From Streptosporangiaceae bacterium NEAU-GS5 (GTDB taxonomy: Bacteria > Actinomycetota > Actinomycetes > Streptosporangiales > Streptosporangiaceae): 64,000 nt of DNA. Positions 7,120-17,048 of this stretch are shown here, piece after piece. Positions within the stretch are counted from its first letter, which is position 1. Each line of letters starts with the position of its first letter. The DNA is taken from the NCBI GenBank assembly GCA_017592665.1, contig JAGFNW010000004.1:248001-312000 (forward strand), read 5' to 3'. The position numbers and the translations under genes were made by a program. The notes beneath the pieces were generated by a model. The model had not been told where the DNA came from. It ran no database searches and saw only the letters and a list, made by a program, of their open reading frames with translations.

Positions 7120-8826
7120 GTGACCACAGACAAGCCGCAGCCGATTCCTGACACCTTCAGCCATGAGAAGCCCAGAGACCAGTATTGGTACAAACGGGCC
7201 GTTTTCTATGAGGTGCTCATCCGCGGATTCGCCGACTCCAACGGCGACGGCACCGGCGACATCAAAGGCCTGATCGAGCGACTGGACTACCTCCAGTGGC
7301 TGGGCGTCGACTGTCTGTGGCTGCTCCCCTTGTACGAGTCCCCGCTCAAAGACGGCGGATACGACATCGCCGACTTCATGAAGATCCTCCCCGATTTCGG
7401 TGATCTGGGGGACTTCGTCAAGCTCGTCGAGGAAGCGCACAAGCGCGGCATCCGCGTGATCGCCGACCTCGTCATGAACCACACGAGCGACCAGCACCCG
7501 TGGTTCCAGGCCTCGCGCCGCGACCCCAACGGCCCGTTCGGCGACTTCTACGTGTGGTCCGACTCCGACGAGATGTACAAGGACGCCCGGATCATCTTCA
7601 TCGACACCGAGTCGTCCAACTGGTCTTTCGACCCCGTGCGGCAGCAGTACTACTGGCACCGCTTCTTCCACCACCAGCCGGACCTCAACTACGAGAACCC
7701 CGACGTGCAGCAGGCCATGCTGGAGGTGCTGCGCTTCTGGCTGGACCTCGGCATCGACGGCTTCCGCATGGACGCCATTCCCTACCTGTTCGAACAGCAG
7801 GGCACCAACTGCGAGAACCTGCCGCCCACACACGCCTACCTCAAGCGTGTCCGGGCCGAGGTCGACCGGCTCTACCCCGACCGGGTCCTGCTCGCCGAGG
7901 CCAACCAGTGGCCGTCCGATGTCGTGGAGTACTTCGGCGACCCGATGACGGGGGGCGACGAGTGCCACATGGCGTTCCACTTCCCGCTCATGCCCCGCAT
8001 CTTCATGGCCGTGCGCCGCGAGTCGCGGTACCCCATTTCCGAAATTTTGGCCCAAACCCCCAAAATTCCGGACAACTGTCAGTGGGGGATCTTCCTGCGG
8101 AACCACGACGAGCTCACCCTCGAGATGGTCACCGACGAAGAGCGCGACTACATGTACTCCGAGTACGCCAAGGATCCCCGGATGCGCGCCAACGTCGGGA
8201 TCCGGCGGCGGCTGGCCCCCCTGCTCGACAACGACCGCAACCAGATCGAGCTGTTCACGGCCCTGCTGATGAGCCTGCCCGGTTCCCCCGTGCTCTATTA
8301 CGGGGATGAGATCGGGATGGGGGACAACATCTGGCTGGGCGACCGCGACGGCGTGCGCACGCCGATGCAGTGGACGCCCGACCGCAACGCCGGGTTCAGC
8401 AACTGCGACCCGGGCCGGCTCTACCTGCCGGTGATCATGGACCCGATCTACGGCTACCAGGCGATCAACGTCGAGGCGCAGCAGAAGTCGTCCAGCTCGC
8501 TGCTGCACTTCACGAAGAAGATGATCGAGATTCGCAAGCGGCACCCGGTCTTCGGGTTGGGCGACTTCACCGAGCTCAACTCCTCCAACCCGAGCGTGCT
8601 GGCATTCGTCCGCGAGCTCGGCGACGACCGAGTGCTCTGCGTGAACAATCTGTCGCGCTTCCCGCAACCCGTCGAGCTGGACCTACGCCGCTTCGAGGGC
8701 GCGAGCCCGATCGAGTGCACGGGTGGCGTGCCGTTCCCGGCAATTGGGGAGCTCCCGTATCTTTTGACGCTACCTGGGCATGGTTTCTACTGGTTCACCA
8801 TTCCGCCAGTCGCCCGGGAGGAATAG
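7120..8826 (+). CDS. treS: Trehalose synthase (maltose/trehalose isomerase)
   Basis: A 568-residue GH13 enzyme that interconverts trehalose and maltose and feeds maltose to the kinase that follows. The start is GTG at 7120 after GGGGAG. Catalytic residues can be placed as nucleophile D218 (GFRMDAIPY), acid/base E260 (LLAEANQWP) and transition-state stabiliser D330 ([10 protein letters not shown]). The length is typical of the unfused form, so the kinase is not attached. The stop is 3 bases before the maltokinase start, consistent with translational coupling. A hairpin of unusual base composition lies within the coding sequence at 8039-8071. Confidence 0.97.
8039..8071 (+). repeat. AT-rich hairpin inside treS
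   Basis: CCGAAATTTTGG (8039-8050) pairs with CCAAAATTCCGG (8060-8071) with one mismatch, around a 9-base loop CCCAAACCC. The codons used (ATT, GAA, TTG, CAA, AAA) are ones the gene otherwise avoids, although the encoded residues fit the family. It may slow translation, act as an internal attenuator, or be chance. Confidence 0.6.
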
Positions 8827-8829
8827 GAC

Positions 8830-10161
8830 GTGCTCACACAGCTCCTTACCAGTTGGATCGCAGGTCAACGCTGGTTCGCGGGTAAGGGGCGCCCGATCGA
8901 CGACCTAACGGTCGACACCTTCGCCGAGCTGGAGTCCGGCGATCCGAAACTCGTGCACGCGGTCGTCTCCGTACGGCAGGGCGACCGCCGCACGCGCTAT
9001 CAGTTGCTCCTCGGAGAACGCTACGAGCTGCCGCACCGGCTGCAGCACGTGATGATCGGGCAACTGGACGGGCGCTTCGTTTACGACGCGGCACACGACT
9101 CCGATCTCACCCCGCGCCTGCTCGAACACATGAACGCCGACGCCATGTCCGGCGAGCTGGCGTTCCGGCGGGTGCCGGGGGCGGACATCGACCCGACGCT
9201 CCGCAGTCTGGTCATGACCGCCGAACAGTCGAACACGTCGATCGTGTTCGGCGACCGCTACATCCTCAAGGTGTTCCGGGCGCTCATTCCGGGGCTCAAT
9301 CCAGAGCTCGAGGTCGTCACGGCGCTGGCCGCCGCGCAGTCGTCGCATGTGGCCAGGCCGTTCGGATGGATCGAGATGCCCGTGGACGGGGTGCCGACCA
9401 CGCTCGCGATCATGCAGGAGTTCCTCAGCAACGCCAGCGAAGGCTGGTCCATGGCGCTGGCGAGCGTCCGCGACCTATACGCGTGCGAGCCCGGCATGCG
9501 GGCCGAGGACGCGGGCGGCGACTTCGCGGCCGAGTCCTTCCGGCTGGGCGTCGCCACCGCCCACGTGCACAAGGAGCTGGCCACCGCGTTCCCGACCGGG
9601 GTGGTCGAGCCGCCCGAGGTGAAGCGGATGGCCGAGCGCTTCCGGCGGCGGCTGGAGCGGGCCGTGGAGGAGGTGCCCGAGCTGGCCGCGCACGCCGACA
9701 TCGCGCACGAGGCGTACGACCGGCTGGCCGACACCGACCGCACGGTCCCGGTGCAGCGCGTGCACGGCGACTACCACCTTGGCCAGGTCGTGCGGGCCAC
9801 CCACGACTGGATCGTGCTCGACTTCGAGGGCGAGCCCGGCCAGCCGCTGGCCCAGCGGCGCGCGCTGGACTCGCCGCTTCGGGACGTGGCGGGGATGCTG
9901 CGCTCGTTCGAGTACGCGGCCCGGCACCTGCTGGCCGACCACGCCGATCCCGCGGCGCTCGAGCGCTGCTCGGAGGAGTGGGCGGCCCGCAACCGGCGCG
10001 CCTTCCTCGACGGGTACGCCGAAGGAGGGGGCCGCATCAGCGGCGCGGACGCGGTCCTGTTGCGCGCTCTCGAGCTGTGCAAGGCCGTCTACGAGGTCAC
10101 CTACGAGGCCCGCAACCGGCCCAGCTGGCTGCCCATCCCCTTGGCCGCCTTCCGCACGTAG
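8830..10161 (+). CDS. mak: Maltokinase (ATP:maltose 1-phosphotransferase)
   Basis: A 443-residue kinase-like protein that phosphorylates maltose from TreS to maltose 1-phosphate, the donor for GlgE. The start is GTG at 8830 with GGAGGA just upstream. The N-terminal WIAGQRWFAGKGR segment is typical of Mak/Pep2. The phosphotransferase core has the catalytic HGDYHLGQ (D314) and the metal-binding DFEGEP (D331). It is cotranscribed with glgE and treS. Its last 61 bases overlap, tail to tail, the end of the minus-strand monooxygenase gene, an unusually long convergent overlap for this window. Confidence 0.96.
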   Translation: MLTQLLTSWIAGQRWFAGKGRPIDDLTVDTFAELESGDPKLVHAVVSVRQGDRRTRYQLLLGERYELPHRLQHVMIGQLDGRFVYDAAHDSDLTPRLLEHMNADAMSGELAFRRVPGADIDPTLRSLVMTAEQSNTSIVFGDRYILKVFRALIPGLNPELEVVTALAAAQSSHVARPFGWIEMPVDGVPTTLAIMQEFLSNASEGWSMALASVRDLYACEPGMRAEDAGGDFAAESFRLGVATAHVHKELATAFPTGVVEPPEVKRMAERFRRRLERAVEEVPELAAHADIAHEAYDRLADTDRTVPVQRVHGDYHLGQVVRATHDWIVLDFEGEPGQPLAQRRALDSPLRDVAGMLRSFEYAARHLLADHADPAALERCSEEWAARNRRAFLDGYAEGGGRISGADAVLLRALELCKAVYEVTYEARNRPSWLPIPLAAFRT

Positions 10162-11373: not shown

Positions 11374-12120
11374 GTGAGCACGCGGGAGCGCATCCTGGCC
11401 GCGGCGGCCGACCTGTTCGCCCAGAAGGGCGCGCAGAACACCTCCATCCGTGAGATCGCGGCGGCCGTGGGCGTGACAAAAACCGCTGTGCTGTATCACT
11501 TCACGACCAAGGCCGAGATCCTGGCCACGCTGCTGACCCCGATGCTCGAAGACATGGAGGCCACGCTCGACGCCGTCGAGCGGGCGGCTCTGGAGCGCGA
11601 CCGCGAGTGGCACGTCGCGGTGGCCATGCTCGACGTCTACATGGCCCACCGCCGGGTCCTCGGGCTGCCGGTGCAGAACCTGTCCGTGCTCGCCCAGGCA
11701 CCGGTCTACGAGCGCTGGATGGCCGCCATGTTCCGGGCGAACGACCTGGTCACCGGCGATGCCTCGACACTGGCCGAGCGGGTGCGCGCCACCCAGGCCA
11801 TGGCGCTGCTGAGCGACCCCGTCATCGTCATCGGCGACGCGCCGGACGAGGAGCTGCGCCACCTCATCCTCGACGGCCTGCGCCGCCTGCTCGGCGTGAG
11901 CATGCCCGACCCTCCCCCACGCACGACGCCGCCATCGGGCGAGCCCGCCGGCCGGCGCCTGCCCCGGCCGCGCGTCCACCCGCGCGGCGGCCGGCCGCTC
12001 TCCATGAGCCCCGAGATGATCGCCACGGCCCGGCGCATGCACGAATCGGGCGCGCACACCATGGCCGAGATAGCCGCCACGCTCGGCGTCTCACGCGCGA
12101 CCCTCTACCGCCACATTTGA
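11374..12120 (+). CDS. TetR-family regulator with an extra C-terminal recombinase-type HTH
   Basis: A 248-residue repressor. Residues 1-50 are a standard TetR DNA-binding domain (TSIREIAAAVGVTKTAVLYHF) and residues 60-185 the ligand/dimer domain. A Pro/Arg-rich linker follows (about 187-203), then residues 204-248 (RGGRPLSMSPEMIATARRMH through GVSRATLYRHI) resemble the C-terminal helix-turn-helix of Hin-type serine recombinases. Ordinary TetR proteins end near residue 190-200. Two DNA-binding heads on one chain would suit the paired operators upstream. The start is GTG at 11374. It probably regulates itself and the divergent monooxygenase. Confidence 0.85.
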   Translation: MSTRERILAAAADLFAQKGAQNTSIREIAAAVGVTKTAVLYHFTTKAEILATLLTPMLEDMEATLDAVERAALERDREWHVAVAMLDVYMAHRRVLGLPVQNLSVLAQAPVYERWMAAMFRANDLVTGDASTLAERVRATQAMALLSDPVIVIGDAPDEELRHLILDGLRRLLGVSMPDPPPRTTPPSGEPAGRRLPRPRVHPRGGRPLSMSPEMIATARRMHESGAHTMAEIAATLGVSRATLYRHI

Positions 12121-12237: not shown

Positions 12238-12894
12238 ATGCAGCGTCGATGGCGTCGATGGACCGGCCTGATGGCCGTGGGGGCGACCACGGGCGCCCTG
12301 CTGTGGGGGCACGGCCTGTGGCAGCGGAGCGGTCCCGAGGCCGCGCAGCGCGCCCAGCGGGCGCCCGAGCCGGGCGATCCGCTGACCCCGCAGGAGATCG
12401 CGGCCGCGAGTGCGGCCGCGACCTCGGGATTCACCGAGCACATGGCCGCCGGCAGCCTCGACCTGCTCTACGTGGAGCGCGACGACGACAAGGCGGCCAC
12501 CTCCAGGCGGGCCGAGGCCTACCTCTACGACTACGCCCACGACCGGCTGATCGTGCGGACCGTCGATCTCGGCACGTCCCGGATCGTCGCCGAGCGGGCC
12601 GCGTCCGGGCGGCAGGCGCCGCCGTCGCAGCGCGAGGAGGCGCGCGCCGCCGTGCTGCTGCTGGCCGACCCGAAGCTCGGCCCCAAGGTCAGGCAGGCGT
12701 ACGCGACGGCCGCGGGCCATCGGCTGGGTTCGGCCGCCGACCTGCACCTGCAGAGCCTGATCTATCCGCGCACGCCGTGCGAGGCGCATCGCTGCCTGCA
12801 GATGTTCGTCCGGCTGCCCGGCGGCCGGTGGCTCGACACGAGCCGGATCGTCGCCGACCTGTCCGCCAAGAAGATCCGATCCCTGGAGTGGTAG
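12238..12894 (+). CDS. Copper amine oxidase N2/N3-like domain protein, membrane-anchored or exported
   Basis: A 218-residue protein with an Arg-rich N-terminus (MQRRWRRW) and one hydrophobic segment (residues 9-25), consistent with a signal or anchor. From PLTPQEIAAAS (about residue 48) to the end, it resembles the paired N2/N3 domains of bacterial copper amine oxidases: VERDDDKAATSRRAEAYLYD, VRTVDLGTSRIV, QAPPSQREEARAAVLLLADP, MFVRLPGGRWLDTSRIVADL. The catalytic domain is the next gene, which overlaps the TAG stop by one base. Together they add up to one normal amine oxidase. It is thus probably the non-catalytic half of a two-gene enzyme. Single-gene separation of this kind is unusual. Confidence 0.72.
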   Translation: MQRRWRRWTGLMAVGATTGALLWGHGLWQRSGPEAAQRAQRAPEPGDPLTPQEIAAASAAATSGFTEHMAAGSLDLLYVERDDDKAATSRRAEAYLYDYAHDRLIVRTVDLGTSRIVAERAASGRQAPPSQREEARAAVLLLADPKLGPKVRQAYATAAGHRLGSAADLHLQSLIYPRTPCEAHRCLQMFVRLPGGRWLDTSRIVADLSAKKIRSLEW

Positions 12895-14021
12895 TGCGTC
12901 CCCTGCTCGCGTTAGTCGCGCTGCTCGCCCTTTCCCCCGTCCCGGCCGCCGCGGCCGCGACCACGCCCACGTGCGGCGAGCCCTATCGGATCGACCGGAC
13001 GCTGCCGGACGGCGCACGCTGGACGATGTGCTGGGAGATGCGCAACATCGAAGGCCTGACGCTCACCCAGGTCGCGTACACCCCGAAGAACGGGCGGGCC
13101 GTCGGGGTGCTGCGGAGCGCGTCGCTCGCGCAGATACAGGTCCCGTACGACAGCGGCGAGCCCCGCTATGAGGACATCGGGGCGCTGGGCGCCGCGGCCA
13201 TCCCGCTGCGCGCGCAGGACTGCCCCGGCGGCGAGCGGCCCGACCAGTACGTCTGCGTGACCACCCGGCCGCGCGGCCACGCCTACTTCAAGGACGAGCC
13301 CTACGCCTCGGCCCAGGGCGACGACCTCGTGGTGTTCTCGGCCTTCCAGGTCGGCTGGTACACCTACCTCGCGGAGTGGGCGTTCGGCGACACCGGCACG
13401 ATCACGCCGCGCGTCGGCGCCACCGGCTCGCTGGCCGATTTCACCACCACCCCCGCGTACGGCTGGCCGATCGGCGTCGGCCGGCATCACTTCGAAGAGA
13501 GCCACAGCCACAACATCTTCTGGCGGCTCGACTTCGACATCGACGGCCGATCGGGCGACCGCGTCGAGCAGTACGACTTCAGCGGATCCGGCACGACCAG
13601 GCGGACCATGCGCCGCACGGCCCTCACCCGGGAGACGGCCGCCGTCTACCGGCCCATGCGCTGGTGGCGCGTGGTCGACTACGGCGTGCGCAACGCCGAC
13701 GGGCACGCCGTGTCCTGGGAGATCGACAATTCCGGCAGCGCCCAATACCGGGGCCCGGCGAGCGAGCGGTTCACCCACGCCGACCTCTATGTGACGAACT
13801 ACCGCGCGTGCGAGCGCCTGGCCAGCGAGAACCCGACGCCGCGGTGCGCCGACAGCGTGGACAAGTACGTGAACGGCGAGGTCGTGCGCGATCCCGTGGT
13901 CTGGGTCAACGTCGACTTCCACCACGTCGTGCGCGACGAGGACCACGATCCGATGCCCACGCACTGGCAGGGCTTCCACATCACGCCACGCGATGTGACC
14001 TCGACCAACCCCTACCGCTGA
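12894..14021 (+). CDS. Secreted copper amine oxidase catalytic domain, with altered cofactor motif
   Basis: A 375-residue protein starting GTG at 12894, inside the stop of the previous gene (TAGTG). Residues 1-22 form a signal peptide. The rest matches the C-terminal copper amine oxidase domain. Candidate copper ligands are H204 and H206 (SHSHNIFWRLDFDIDG) and H344 (FHHVVRDEDHDPMP), and D94 can be aligned with the catalytic base. The topaquinone site is normally N-Y-D/E-Y; here it reads W155-Y156-T157-Y158, so the precursor Tyr is kept but both neighbours are changed. Whether it still makes topaquinone and oxidises amines is therefore uncertain. Its stop overlaps the convergent DUF4328 gene by 10 bases. 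Confidence 0.8.
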   Translation: MRPLLALVALLALSPVPAAAAATTPTCGEPYRIDRTLPDGARWTMCWEMRNIEGLTLTQVAYTPKNGRAVGVLRSASLAQIQVPYDSGEPRYEDIGALGAAAIPLRAQDCPGGERPDQYVCVTTRPRGHAYFKDEPYASAQGDDLVVFSAFQVGWYTYLAEWAFGDTGTITPRVGATGSLADFTTTPAYGWPIGVGRHHFEESHSHNIFWRLDFDIDGRSGDRVEQYDFSGSGTTRRTMRRTALTRETAAVYRPMRWWRVVDYGVRNADGHAVSWEIDNSGSAQYRGPASERFTHADLYVTNYRACERLASENPTPRCADSVDKYVNGEVVRDPVVWVNVDFHHVVRDEDHDPMPTHWQGFHITPRDVTSTNPYR

Positions 14022-14716
14022 GCGGCCATCTCCGGGCGCTGCAGCGGGGGGAACATCCGCATGAACCGGGCGTTCTCCTGGAACTCGGTGATGCGCAGCA
14101 CGATGGCCGCCGCGCATCCGGCGGCGATCACCGCGGGCGCCAGGCCGTAGACGTCGATGAGGGAGGCCGTCCGGAGCCCCTGCGCGGTGTCCCAGCTGCT
14201 GTAGCCGTAGGAGACGACGCGGCCGAGCACCAGGTCGGCCAGCCAGAACAGCCACCATGCGGCGATCAGCCCCACGCCGGGGCCGCCGCCGGAGGCCCGC
14301 CAGACGTCCCTGATGAGCCGCGGCGGGATCACCAGGTTGCCGATCGGCACGATCCAGCCGAGGATCACCCACGACCGCCCGTGGCGGTGGAACATCTGCG
14401 GGGAGATGGCCTCGGAGTTGACCCGGGCCCGCCACAGCCAGACGGTGAAGACCACGCCAGCGGCCACCAGCGCGACGATCTGGCCCACGCCGGTGGCGGT
14501 GGTGAGGTTGTCGCTGTTGGTGAGCTGGTCCTGGGTCAGTTCGGGGTCCCCGGCCAGATACCGTTCGAGCAGGGTGATCCGGACGGCGCTGACCAGCGCG
14601 GCGGCGACGTTGACGATGGTGGCGACCGCCAGCGTCACATAGGCCGCGACCCCGAGCCCTTGGATCGGCCGGATGACGCTCGGCGGCGCAGGGTTCGGAT
14701 TTGCGGGGGGATGCAT
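14012..14716 (-). CDS. DUF4328 membrane protein
   Basis: A 234-residue protein with about five hydrophobic helices: VAAYVTLAVATIVNVAAALV, VGQIVALVAAGVVFTVWLW, WVILGWIVPIGNLVIPP, AAWWLFWLADLVLG and APAVIAAGCAAAIVLRI. The WLWRARVN...GWIVPIGNLVIPP pattern and the Pro-rich N-terminus are typical of DUF4328. Molecular function is unknown. I use the ATG at 14716 (MHPPANPNP). An in-frame ATG at 14743 would add nine residues, and neither has a clear ribosome-binding site. It lies tail to tail with the amine oxidase gene and head to head with glgB. Confidence 0.75.
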   Translation of the reverse strand: MHPPANPNPAPPSVIRPIQGLGVAAYVTLAVATIVNVAAALVSAVRITLLERYLAGDPELTQDQLTNSDNLTTATGVGQIVALVAAGVVFTVWLWRARVNSEAISPQMFHRHGRSWVILGWIVPIGNLVIPPRLIRDVWRASGGGPGVGLIAAWWLFWLADLVLGRVVSYGYSSWDTAQGLRTASLIDVYGLAPAVIAAGCAAAIVLRITEFQENARFMRMFPPLQRPEMAAQR

Positions 14717-14758
14717 GTCGCAAAGCGTACGCAACGGGCGCATAGATCATGAAGGACG

Positions 14759-14798: not shown

Positions 14799-14831
14799 AT
14801 AGATCGGGGGTCGTTGGGGCAGTGTTGGAGC

Positions 14832-17048
14832 ATGGCGGATTTGAACCGGCTGGCCGGCGGCGCGCACCACGACCCTCACTCGATCCTCGGCGCCCACCTG
14901 GGGCGTGACGGGGTCACCATCCGGGCGTTGCGGCCGTTCGCCGAACGGATCGAGGCGATCGTCGACGGCACGGCCCACGAACTCAGCCACGTTCAATACG
15001 GCATCTTCGAAGTGACCCTCCCCGATCTGGACAAAATCCCGTCCTATCGGTTCCGCGTCACCTATCCGGGCGCCCCGGCGTACGAGGTGGGCGACTCTTA
15101 TCGGCACTGGCCGACGCTGGGCGAGGTCGACCTGCACCTGATCGGCGAGGGGCGGCACGAGCGCCTCTGGGAGGTGCTGGGCGCGCGCGTGATGCGCCAC
15201 AACGAGGAAGACGGCGTGGCCTTCGCCGTGTGGGCGCCGAACGCCCAAGGCGTACGGGTCGCCGGGGATTTCAACGCGTGGAACGGCGTGACGCACCCCA
15301 TGCGCTCGCTCGGCCGCTCCGGCGTGTGGGAGCTGTTCGTGCCCGACATCGGCGAGGGCACGCACTACAAGTTCGCGATCCTCGGCATGGACGGCGTGTG
15401 GCGCGAGAAGGCCGACCCGCTGGCCCGCCGTACGGAGATTCCCCCCAAGACCGCCTCGATCGTCGACAAATCCAGCTACGCCTGGAACGACGCCGAGTGG
15501 ATGACCGCCAGGGCCGGTAAGAACGCCCTGGTCGAGCCCATGAGCACCTACGAGGTCCACCTGGGGTCGTGGCGCCCGGGTCTGTCCTATCTGGAGCTCG
15601 CCGAGCAACTCGTCGCGTACGTCACGGAGATGGGGTTCACCCACGTGGAGTTCCTGCCGGTGGCCGAGCATCCGTTCGGCGGATCGTGGGGCTACCAGGT
15701 GACCTCCTACTATGCGCCGACCTCGCGCTTCGGCTCCCCCGACGATTTCAGGACGCTCGTCGACACGCTCCACCAGGCGGGCGTCGGCGTGATCGTCGAC
15801 TGGGTCCCGGCGCATTTCCCGACCGACGAGTGGGCGCTGGCCCGCTTCGACGGCACCCCGCTCTACGAGCACGCCGACCCGCGACGCGGCGAGCACCCCG
15901 ACTGGGGCACGTACGTCTTCGACTTCGGCCGCAACGAGGTGCGCAACTTCCTGGTCGCCAACGCCGTCTACTGGCTGCGGGAGTACCACATCGACGGGCT
16001 CCGGGTCGACGCGGTGGCCTCGATGCTCTACCTCGACTACTCGCGCCGCGAGGGCGAGTGGACCCCCAACATCTACGGCGGCCGGGAGAATCTGGACGCC
16101 ATCGAGTTCCTCAAGGAGATGAACACGGTCGCCTACCGCGAGGCCCCCGGCATCGTCACGATCGCCGAGGAGTCGACCGCATGGCCCGGCGTCTCACGCC
16201 CCGTCTACCTCGGCGGGCTCGGCTTCGGTTTCAAATGGAACATGGGCTGGATGCACGACACCCTCGCCTACCTGCAGCACGAGCCGGTCTTCCGGCAGTA
16301 TCACCATCACCAGATGACCTTCTCGCTGATGTACGCCTACAGCGAGAACTTCGTCCTGCCGCTCAGCCACGACGAGGTCGTCCATCTGAAGGGGTCGCTG
16401 CTCGGCAAGATGCCGGGCGACGAGTGGCAGCGCTTCGCCAACCTCCGCGCCCTGCTGGCCTACATGTGGGCCCACCCGGGCAAGCAGCTGCTGTTCATGG
16501 GCGGCGAGTTCGGCCAGGGCTCGGAGTGGTCGGAGTCGAAGGGCCTCGACTGGTGGGTGCTCGACTTCGACGGGCACAAGGGAGTGCAGAAGCTGGTCCG
16601 CGACCTCAACCAGGTCTACCGCGAGACGCCGGCGCTGTTCTCCCAGGATCACGTCCCCGACGGGTTCCGCTGGATCGACGCCGACGACGCGCCCGGCAAC
16701 GTGTTCTCCTTCCTCCGCTACGGCTCGGACGGCTCGATCCTGGCCTGCGTGGCCAACTTCTCCGGCGGCCCGCACGAGAACTACCGGCTCGGCCTGCCGG
16801 AGAGCGGCACGTGGGACGAGGTCATCAACACCGACGCCTACCCCTACTGGGGAAGCGGCGTCGGCAACCTCGGCGCGGTCGAGGCCCAGCCCGAGCCGTA
16901 TCACGGCCAGCCCTACTCGGTGACGCTCCGCGTGCCGCCGCTAGGCACGGTCTGGCTGCGACGTTCCGCGCGGAGCGAGGCCGAGGGGGGACGTGCGGGA
17001 GAGGGCGACGGTGCCCGCGGCGGCGAGAGCGACGGCGGCGACGGCTAG
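14832..17048 (+). CDS. glgB: 1,4-alpha-glucan branching enzyme
   Basis: A 738-residue GH13 enzyme that cuts alpha-1,4 chains and re-joins them as alpha-1,6 branches in glycogen. The ATG at 14832 ([10 protein letters not shown]) follows GTTGGAGC; an ATG six codons earlier is less likely. An N-terminal CBM48 module precedes the barrel. Catalytic residues are nucleophile D393 ([13 protein letters not shown]) and acid E446 (IAEESTAWP). The usual end near GTVWLRR is followed by about 27 Gly/Glu/Arg-rich residues that do not belong to the family. This tail is read through the 3' end of a broken transporter gene on the other strand, with a 108-base overlap. It completes the glgE-treS-mak pathway. 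Confidence 0.96.

Follow-up and report, generated by a model that had tools for sequence, protein, structure and literature searches.

Two adjacent open reading frames (ORFs), P0001 and P0002, were analyzed in a 64,000-nucleotide stretch of the Streptosporangiaceae bacterium NEAU-GS5 genome (contig JAGFNW010000004.1, positions 248,001 to 312,000), hereafter the window. Both ORFs lie where an earlier note on this DNA had put them, with products of 218 and 375 amino acids and a one-base overlap, and their relatives are referred to as P1 and P2, respectively. The main features of the locus are listed below; positions are those of the window, residue numbers are those of P0002, and fractions give conservation among 99 P2 sequences.

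12238..12894, plus strand: P0001 (P1), 218 aa, ATG start; predicted N2+N3 domain chain of a copper amine oxidase (CAO), putatively exported or membrane-anchored
12892..12896, plus strand: TAGTG, in which the P1 stop overlaps the P2 GTG start by one base (from the sequence)
12894..14021, plus strand: P0002 (P2), 375 aa, GTG start; predicted catalytic CAO chain (linker and domain 4), putatively exported
13146..13148, plus strand: Y85, equivalent of the cofactor-hydrogen-bonding Tyr (alignment at VPY; 99/99)
13173..13175, plus strand: D94, putative counterpart of the catalytic base (aligned by profile with PDB chains; 99/99)
13356..13367, plus strand: W155-Y156-T157-Y158, cofactor motif, canonically N-Y-D/E-Y (W155, Y156, and Y158 invariant, 99/99)
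13503..13511, plus strand: H204-S-H206, predicted copper ligands 1 and 2 (aligned with the canonical His-X-His; 99/99)
13923..13925, plus strand: H344, predicted copper ligand 3 (aligned with the canonical third His; 99/99)

The pair is preceded by a gene for a TetR regulator (window 11374-12120). The C-terminus of this regulator has a match to a helix-turn-helix of the resolvase type (HTH_7), which was judged an unusual combination. A DUF4328 gene on the minus strand (window 14012-14743) is convergent with P0002, and the two ends overlap by ten bases.

Profile searches assigned the longer chain directly. P0002 scored 107.9 bits with PF01179 (cut-off, 27 bits), the best stretch being residues 129-373. 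Its AlphaFold2 model (pLDDT 80, pTM 0.82; residues 131-136 and 184-201 poorly predicted) matched E. coli CAO (Foldseek, 1.6e-21), and model residues 26-372 were superimposed on AGAO (2yx9) with Z 34.1 and rmsd 3.3 over 334 aligned residues. The AGAO side of several of these matches comprised chain residues 231-620, which form the catalytic part. P0002 is therefore predicted to fold like the CAO catalytic domain. The structure matches listed for the model were CAOs, and no membership in the galactose oxidase/GlxA group is claimed.

The shorter chain was more divergent. No Pfam family scored over its cut-off with P0001, the best E value (0.18) belonging to an unrelated family, and NCBIfam gave a weak match to the N-terminal part of primary amine oxidase (E value, 0.014; 13.9 bits). 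A sequence search aligned P0001 with the N-terminal end of a frame encoding a canonical CAO (L067) at 31% identity (E value, 1.5e-5), and hhalign aligned the P1 profile with the N-termini of 23 canonical CAO frames, sequences picked by motif, over 175 columns with a probability of 97%. The AlphaFold2 model of P0001 (pLDDT 86, pTM 0.75) matched the CAO N2/N3 domains (Foldseek, 1.9e-6), with Z 11.6 and rmsd 4.5 over 166 aligned residues for HPAO 20-207 and Z 8.5 and rmsd 4.1-4.2 over 162-163 aligned residues for AGAO 9-190/191. P0001 is thus predicted to fold like the N2 and N3 domains of CAO, and the profile and model matches agree with the earlier proposal that an N2/N3-like half forms a separate gene. 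Taken together, the fold and sequence matches of both chains place the split point between N3 and the catalytic domain.

Conservation and neighborhood of the gene pair

The split was found to be conserved among related actinomycetes. Within the order, the P2 type was present in 30 of 200 genomes, that of the window included (E value, 1.5e-44 or better), and P1 adjoined P2 in 29 of these 30. Among the named loci, which represent the best 80 of 425 relatives and include Streptosporangium, Nonomuraea, Planomonospora, Planobispora, Spongiactinospora, many Streptomyces, and others, P1 was located upstream of P2 in 79; the sole exception, L140, is cut by a contig end. A class-wide profile search detected the P2 type in 40 of 394 sampled genomes (286 bits or more). 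The 16 of these that scored in the divergent range (286-449 bits) came from four other families, and 15 of them carried P1 as a separate ORF. When the named loci, the window, L031, L032, and the divergent loci were combined, with shared organisms counted once, a separate neighboring N2/N3 ORF was identified in 96 of 99 actinomycete loci and a fused gene in none. These results bear out the claim that a CAO is split into two genes here, and similar split pairs, the search for which had been suggested, exist in related actinomycetes. Chance is excluded by the identity of eight active-site positions in all 99 P2 sequences together with the partner ORF in 96 loci. A two-gene CAO with a natural Trp at the cofactor gate is a real, conserved arrangement.

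A frameshift, an assembly error, or a decaying single gene is of negligible probability as an explanation. Its only support is that canonical CAO is one gene, whereas 75 of 79 P2 relatives begin with a signal-like segment of their own; the separate ORFs and the lack of any fusion among the 99 loci ruled out a frameshift or assembly artefact.

In the 79 loci measured, the first possible P2 start overlapped P1 in 25 and followed the P1 stop by 0-20 nt in 17, by 21-60 nt in 19, and by 61-150 nt in 18. This coding overlap, the position of P1 directly upstream of P2 in nearly all loci, and the occurrence of the same domains in one chain in canonical CAOs argue against the two chains acting apart, with P2 self-sufficient and P1 a separate secreted protein linked to it by common ancestry only. 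Such independence would suit L032 and L217, where no P1 was detectable near P2, and nine genomes of one genus that matched only the N3-like part of P1 and contained no P2 of the split type, and we give it a slim chance. One of these nine genomes had a match elsewhere to the single-gene relatives described below (group B).

In the six genomes of this genus (g25) that were examined (L053-L058), the N3-like ORF lies without P2 between mak and glgB, the site at which the window has the P1-P2 pair. Its open frames span 152-330 aa, show an export-type start on inspection, and share 48-58% identity with the C-terminal part of P0001. It could be what remains of a P1-P2 pair, or the N3 domain may have been put to use independently.

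Separate export signals had been proposed for the two chains. Judged by hydropathy only, export-type N-termini are indeed present on both, clearly in P0002 (maximum, 2.5) and more weakly in P0001 (1.7), where the N-terminus, on inspection, resembles a signal anchor more closely than it does a cleaved signal. A crude hydropathy test with rule-chosen starts revealed a hydrophobic, signal-like N-terminus in the 75 P2 relatives mentioned above and in 71 of 79 P1 relatives. Six Cys residues were found in the P2 domain in 81 of 83 sequences. C306 and C318 were absent together in the same six sequences, L209-L214, which form one group; a joint loss is as expected of a disulfide, and the six cases may reflect one event. 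The hydrophobic N-termini and the six Cys fit export. Four of the 16 divergent P2 proteins (L209, L211, L213, and L216) end in an LxxTG-like motif, a hydrophobic stretch, and a basic tail, and no sortase-type LxxTG tail was found at the end of P0002. An Ig-like domain on P2 scored over the Pfam cut-off in L215 and below it in L219.

The neighboring genes differed between lineages. In the window, genes for trehalose synthase (TreS) and maltokinase (Mak) are located upstream (7120-10161) and glgB downstream (14814-17048). GlgB was encoded within about 4 kb of the pair in 22 of 28 Streptosporangiaceae loci, and TreS and Mak in 10 of 28. Among the 52 other loci, mostly Streptomyces, GlgX was found near the pair in 37 and TreY in 18 (the names GlgX, TreY, and TreZ come from NCBIfam matches in a single locus, L182), and neither GlgB nor GlgX was present in 6 of the 28 and 15 of the 52. 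None of these trehalose and glycogen genes was detected in L059, L060, or any of the 16 divergent loci, in a database check in which P0002 itself had matches in 18 of 18. A functional link to trehalose or glycogen metabolism was therefore not adopted, and these neighbors were treated as a lineage-specific position.

In 12 of the 16 divergent loci (L207-L209, L211-L214, L216, and L219-L222) and in L059, the next gene after P2, in the same orientation, was DUF305-like (CopM-like); the contig of L210 ends just after P2. Pfam confirmed DUF305 in L207, L212, and L219, the profile sources, and nine others matched the profile with E values of 4.2e-47 or better. Neither the window nor any of the 80 closer loci had the gene, and the window genome contains three DUF305 genes away from the P1-P2 pair. 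Copper binding is described for CopM, a DUF305 protein of Synechocystis that occurs in the periplasm and outside the cell (PMC4335983). This suggests that the DUF305-like gene beside P1-P2 encodes a copper-handling partner. Together with the wall-anchor-like tails of the four divergent P2 proteins and the loss of an otherwise conserved Asn, these neighbors would also be compatible with a non-catalytic copper-binding protein derived from CAO and serving in storage, in sensing, or as a surface structure. We regard that role as quite improbable, given that D94, Y85, Y156, and Y158, which serve catalysis or cofactor formation, are invariant in all 99 P2 sequences.

Active site and the tryptophan motif

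Alignment of the 99 P2 sequences revealed nine invariant positions, namely Y85, D94, W155, Y156, Y158, H204, H206, H343, and H344. The copper ligands H204, H206, and H344 had been read from the sequence in the earlier note and are confirmed at these positions, since all three align with the canonical ligands. In a profile alignment to solved CAOs, Y156 corresponds to the precursor Tyr of the topaquinone (TPQ) cofactor and D94 to the Asp that we take to be the catalytic base of CAOs. Copper binding and the basic catalytic residues of P0002 are thus predicted with good confidence.

The departure from the canonical site lies in the residue before the cofactor Tyr. The Asn-Tyr-Asp/Glu consensus is replaced in P0002 by Trp-Tyr-Thr, and Trp was found in all 99 relatives. 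The altered W-Y-T-Y motif reported earlier is accordingly real, and its alignment with the canonical cofactor Tyr is not misplaced, as the profile and fold matches and the complete conservation indicate. All 23 canonical actinobacterial CAOs compared have Asn before the cofactor Tyr; the first control set was chosen by the N-Y-x-Y motif itself and hence circular, while all 23 loci of the control check (L153-L175) came from a family search without motif choice, with N-Y in 21 printed domains and, for L156 and L158, whose printed domain is a fragment, taken from the motif-chosen set. Position 157 was variable (E 60, T 26, D 10, and A 3), so that the T of W-Y-T-Y is a local feature and the Trp the general one. 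The change from D/E to T is minor, as 70 of the 99 sequences have E or D. In ten relatives with Ser for the Gly before Trp, the motif was W-Y-E-Y throughout.

A Trp-Tyr motif also occurs in single-gene relatives, designated group B (L061-L066 and L069-L071). These proteins of about 513-527 aa carried W-Y-R-Y in nine of the nine fetched, a sample of about twenty matches listed that was chosen by P0002 BLAST hits; for the later alignment, the sequences were extracted with this motif. Group B and the split pair share the Trp-Tyr, and their three His, the Asp, and both Tyr are aligned, but group B is encoded by one gene and has another sequence around the third His. Two of three group-B proteins scanned scored over the PF01179 cut-off and one under it. 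Trp-type and Asn-type proteins both exceed the Pfam CAO cut-off, so that the proteins passing it fall into two classes that differ in their active sites. A further Trp close to the copper ligands, W210, was present in 94 of 99 split-type P2 and in nine of nine group-B proteins and in none of 25 canonical sequences, which were picked by motif. In a tree of motif-picked sequences, groups A, B, and C were separate; the tree had no outgroup, its long branches met, and its bootstrap had not converged, so that no order of splitting is claimed. The window genome itself encodes a second CAO-like protein with W-Y-R-Y, a single gene of 524 aa (contig C41, L066:5768-7339).

TPQ formation requires only copper, O2, and the precursor Tyr. 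Galactose oxidase and GlxA, in which a Trp is stacked at a redox site, offer a different model. By analogy with them, P0002 could be a copper oxidase with another cofactor, in which Tyr156 would stay a tyrosine (radical) or become cross-linked, with the Trp stacked on it. The invariance of W155, which extends to the nine group-B proteins and points to selection for Trp, and W210, which sets the split and group-B types apart from canonical CAOs, favor such a cofactor. The simple requirements of TPQ formation and the invariance of the putative catalytic Asp, with its role in amine-quinone chemistry, and of both positioning Tyr speak against it, and we consider it unlikely.

Published mutants bear on this point from both sides. 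Strict conservation is reported for the Asn that precedes the cofactor Tyr of TPQ enzymes, and HPAO N404A contained only 5-10% TPQ (PMC3382800), so that Trp at this position may prevent TPQ chemistry. AGAO N381A still formed TPQ, 180-fold slower, with a kcat of 1/160 (PMC9491219). In these mutants, loss of the Asn weakens TPQ formation and does not abolish it. The residues named for the quantum-chemical region of AGAO are Tyr284, Asp298, Asn381, TPQ, Tyr384, His431, His433, and His592 (PMC9491219); by our own residue matching, seven of the eight are kept in P2 and Asn381 is replaced by Trp. The earlier suggestion that the altered motif points to a protein with no quinone is consequently not supported: the putative catalytic Asp is invariant, as are the Tyr that bonds the cofactor and the second motif Tyr, the D/E-to-T change is limited to part of the family, and the Asn mutants cited above still make TPQ, although poorly.

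Proposed enzyme and relation to known copper amine oxidases

The invariant Asp favors amine/quinone chemistry over a dead enzyme, and an invariant bulky Trp with the other catalytic residues kept argues for a retuned active enzyme. P0001 and P0002 probably constitute an exported CAO, predicted from sequence to be active. With a probability of roughly 0.6, the locus encodes one exported two-chain CAO in which Tyr156 most likely becomes the quinone and the Asn gate is replaced by Trp. The N2/N3 domains would come from P0001 and the catalytic domain from P0002, and a presumed heterotetramer of both would replace the usual CAO homodimer; from conserved adjacency and fold, we infer that the chains associate. 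Copper would be held by H204, H206, and H344, and Tyr156 would most likely be converted to topaquinone by self-processing. D94 would act as the base that deprotonates the bound amine, and the cofactor would be positioned by Y85 and Y158. Where the canonical Asn overlies the quinone ring and gates its rotation, the invariant Trp may stack on the ring and hold it differently.

The pair shares with AGAO and E. coli CAO (PF01179) the predicted catalytic fold, the three His, the cofactor Tyr, the catalytic Asp, the equivalents of Tyr284 and Tyr384, and, in the partner chain, the predicted N2/N3 fold. It differs in that these CAOs and their solved relatives are one chain with Asn before the cofactor Tyr, while the pair has two genes and Trp. 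Split-type P2 proteins also have group-specific residues compared with canonical CAOs (G40, C46, D86, H271, and H357-W358-Q359) and lack the Thr that canonical enzymes have four positions ahead of the cofactor Tyr. The same Asn is lost in AGAO N381A and HPAO N404A, but these are laboratory Ala mutants with poor TPQ formation, unlike a natural invariant Trp. Galactose oxidase and GlxA have their own beta-propeller fold and a Cys-Tyr cross-link. A Trp beside a redox Tyr at copper is possibly shared with them, although their fold is unrelated and the likeness would be an analogy only. Plant clade I CuAOs reportedly lack T/S-x-x-N-Y-D (PMC12058724) and are likewise CAO homologues outside the consensus, but they are plant proteins. 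Among the literature titles and abstract openings listed, none described a bacterial CAO that is split or has the Trp motif.

A more far-reaching possibility, tentative and with the odds clearly against it, is that the pair represents a two-chain oxidase family with an invariant Trp on the redox Tyr and cofactor chemistry outside the standard TPQ cycle, either a rotation-locked TPQ that uses another oxidant or acceptor, or a tyrosyl or cross-linked cofactor on which the Trp is stacked.

Laboratory mutants have served to study how the Asn gates the quinone (PMC9491219; PMC3382800). A natural Trp family with the other catalytic residues kept makes the question of Asn gating directly testable, and its cofactor may differ. 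A naturally split CAO is also a useful test of the role of the N2/N3 domains, and the replacement of the cofactor-guarding Asn by Trp in every relative could show how the cofactor is controlled.
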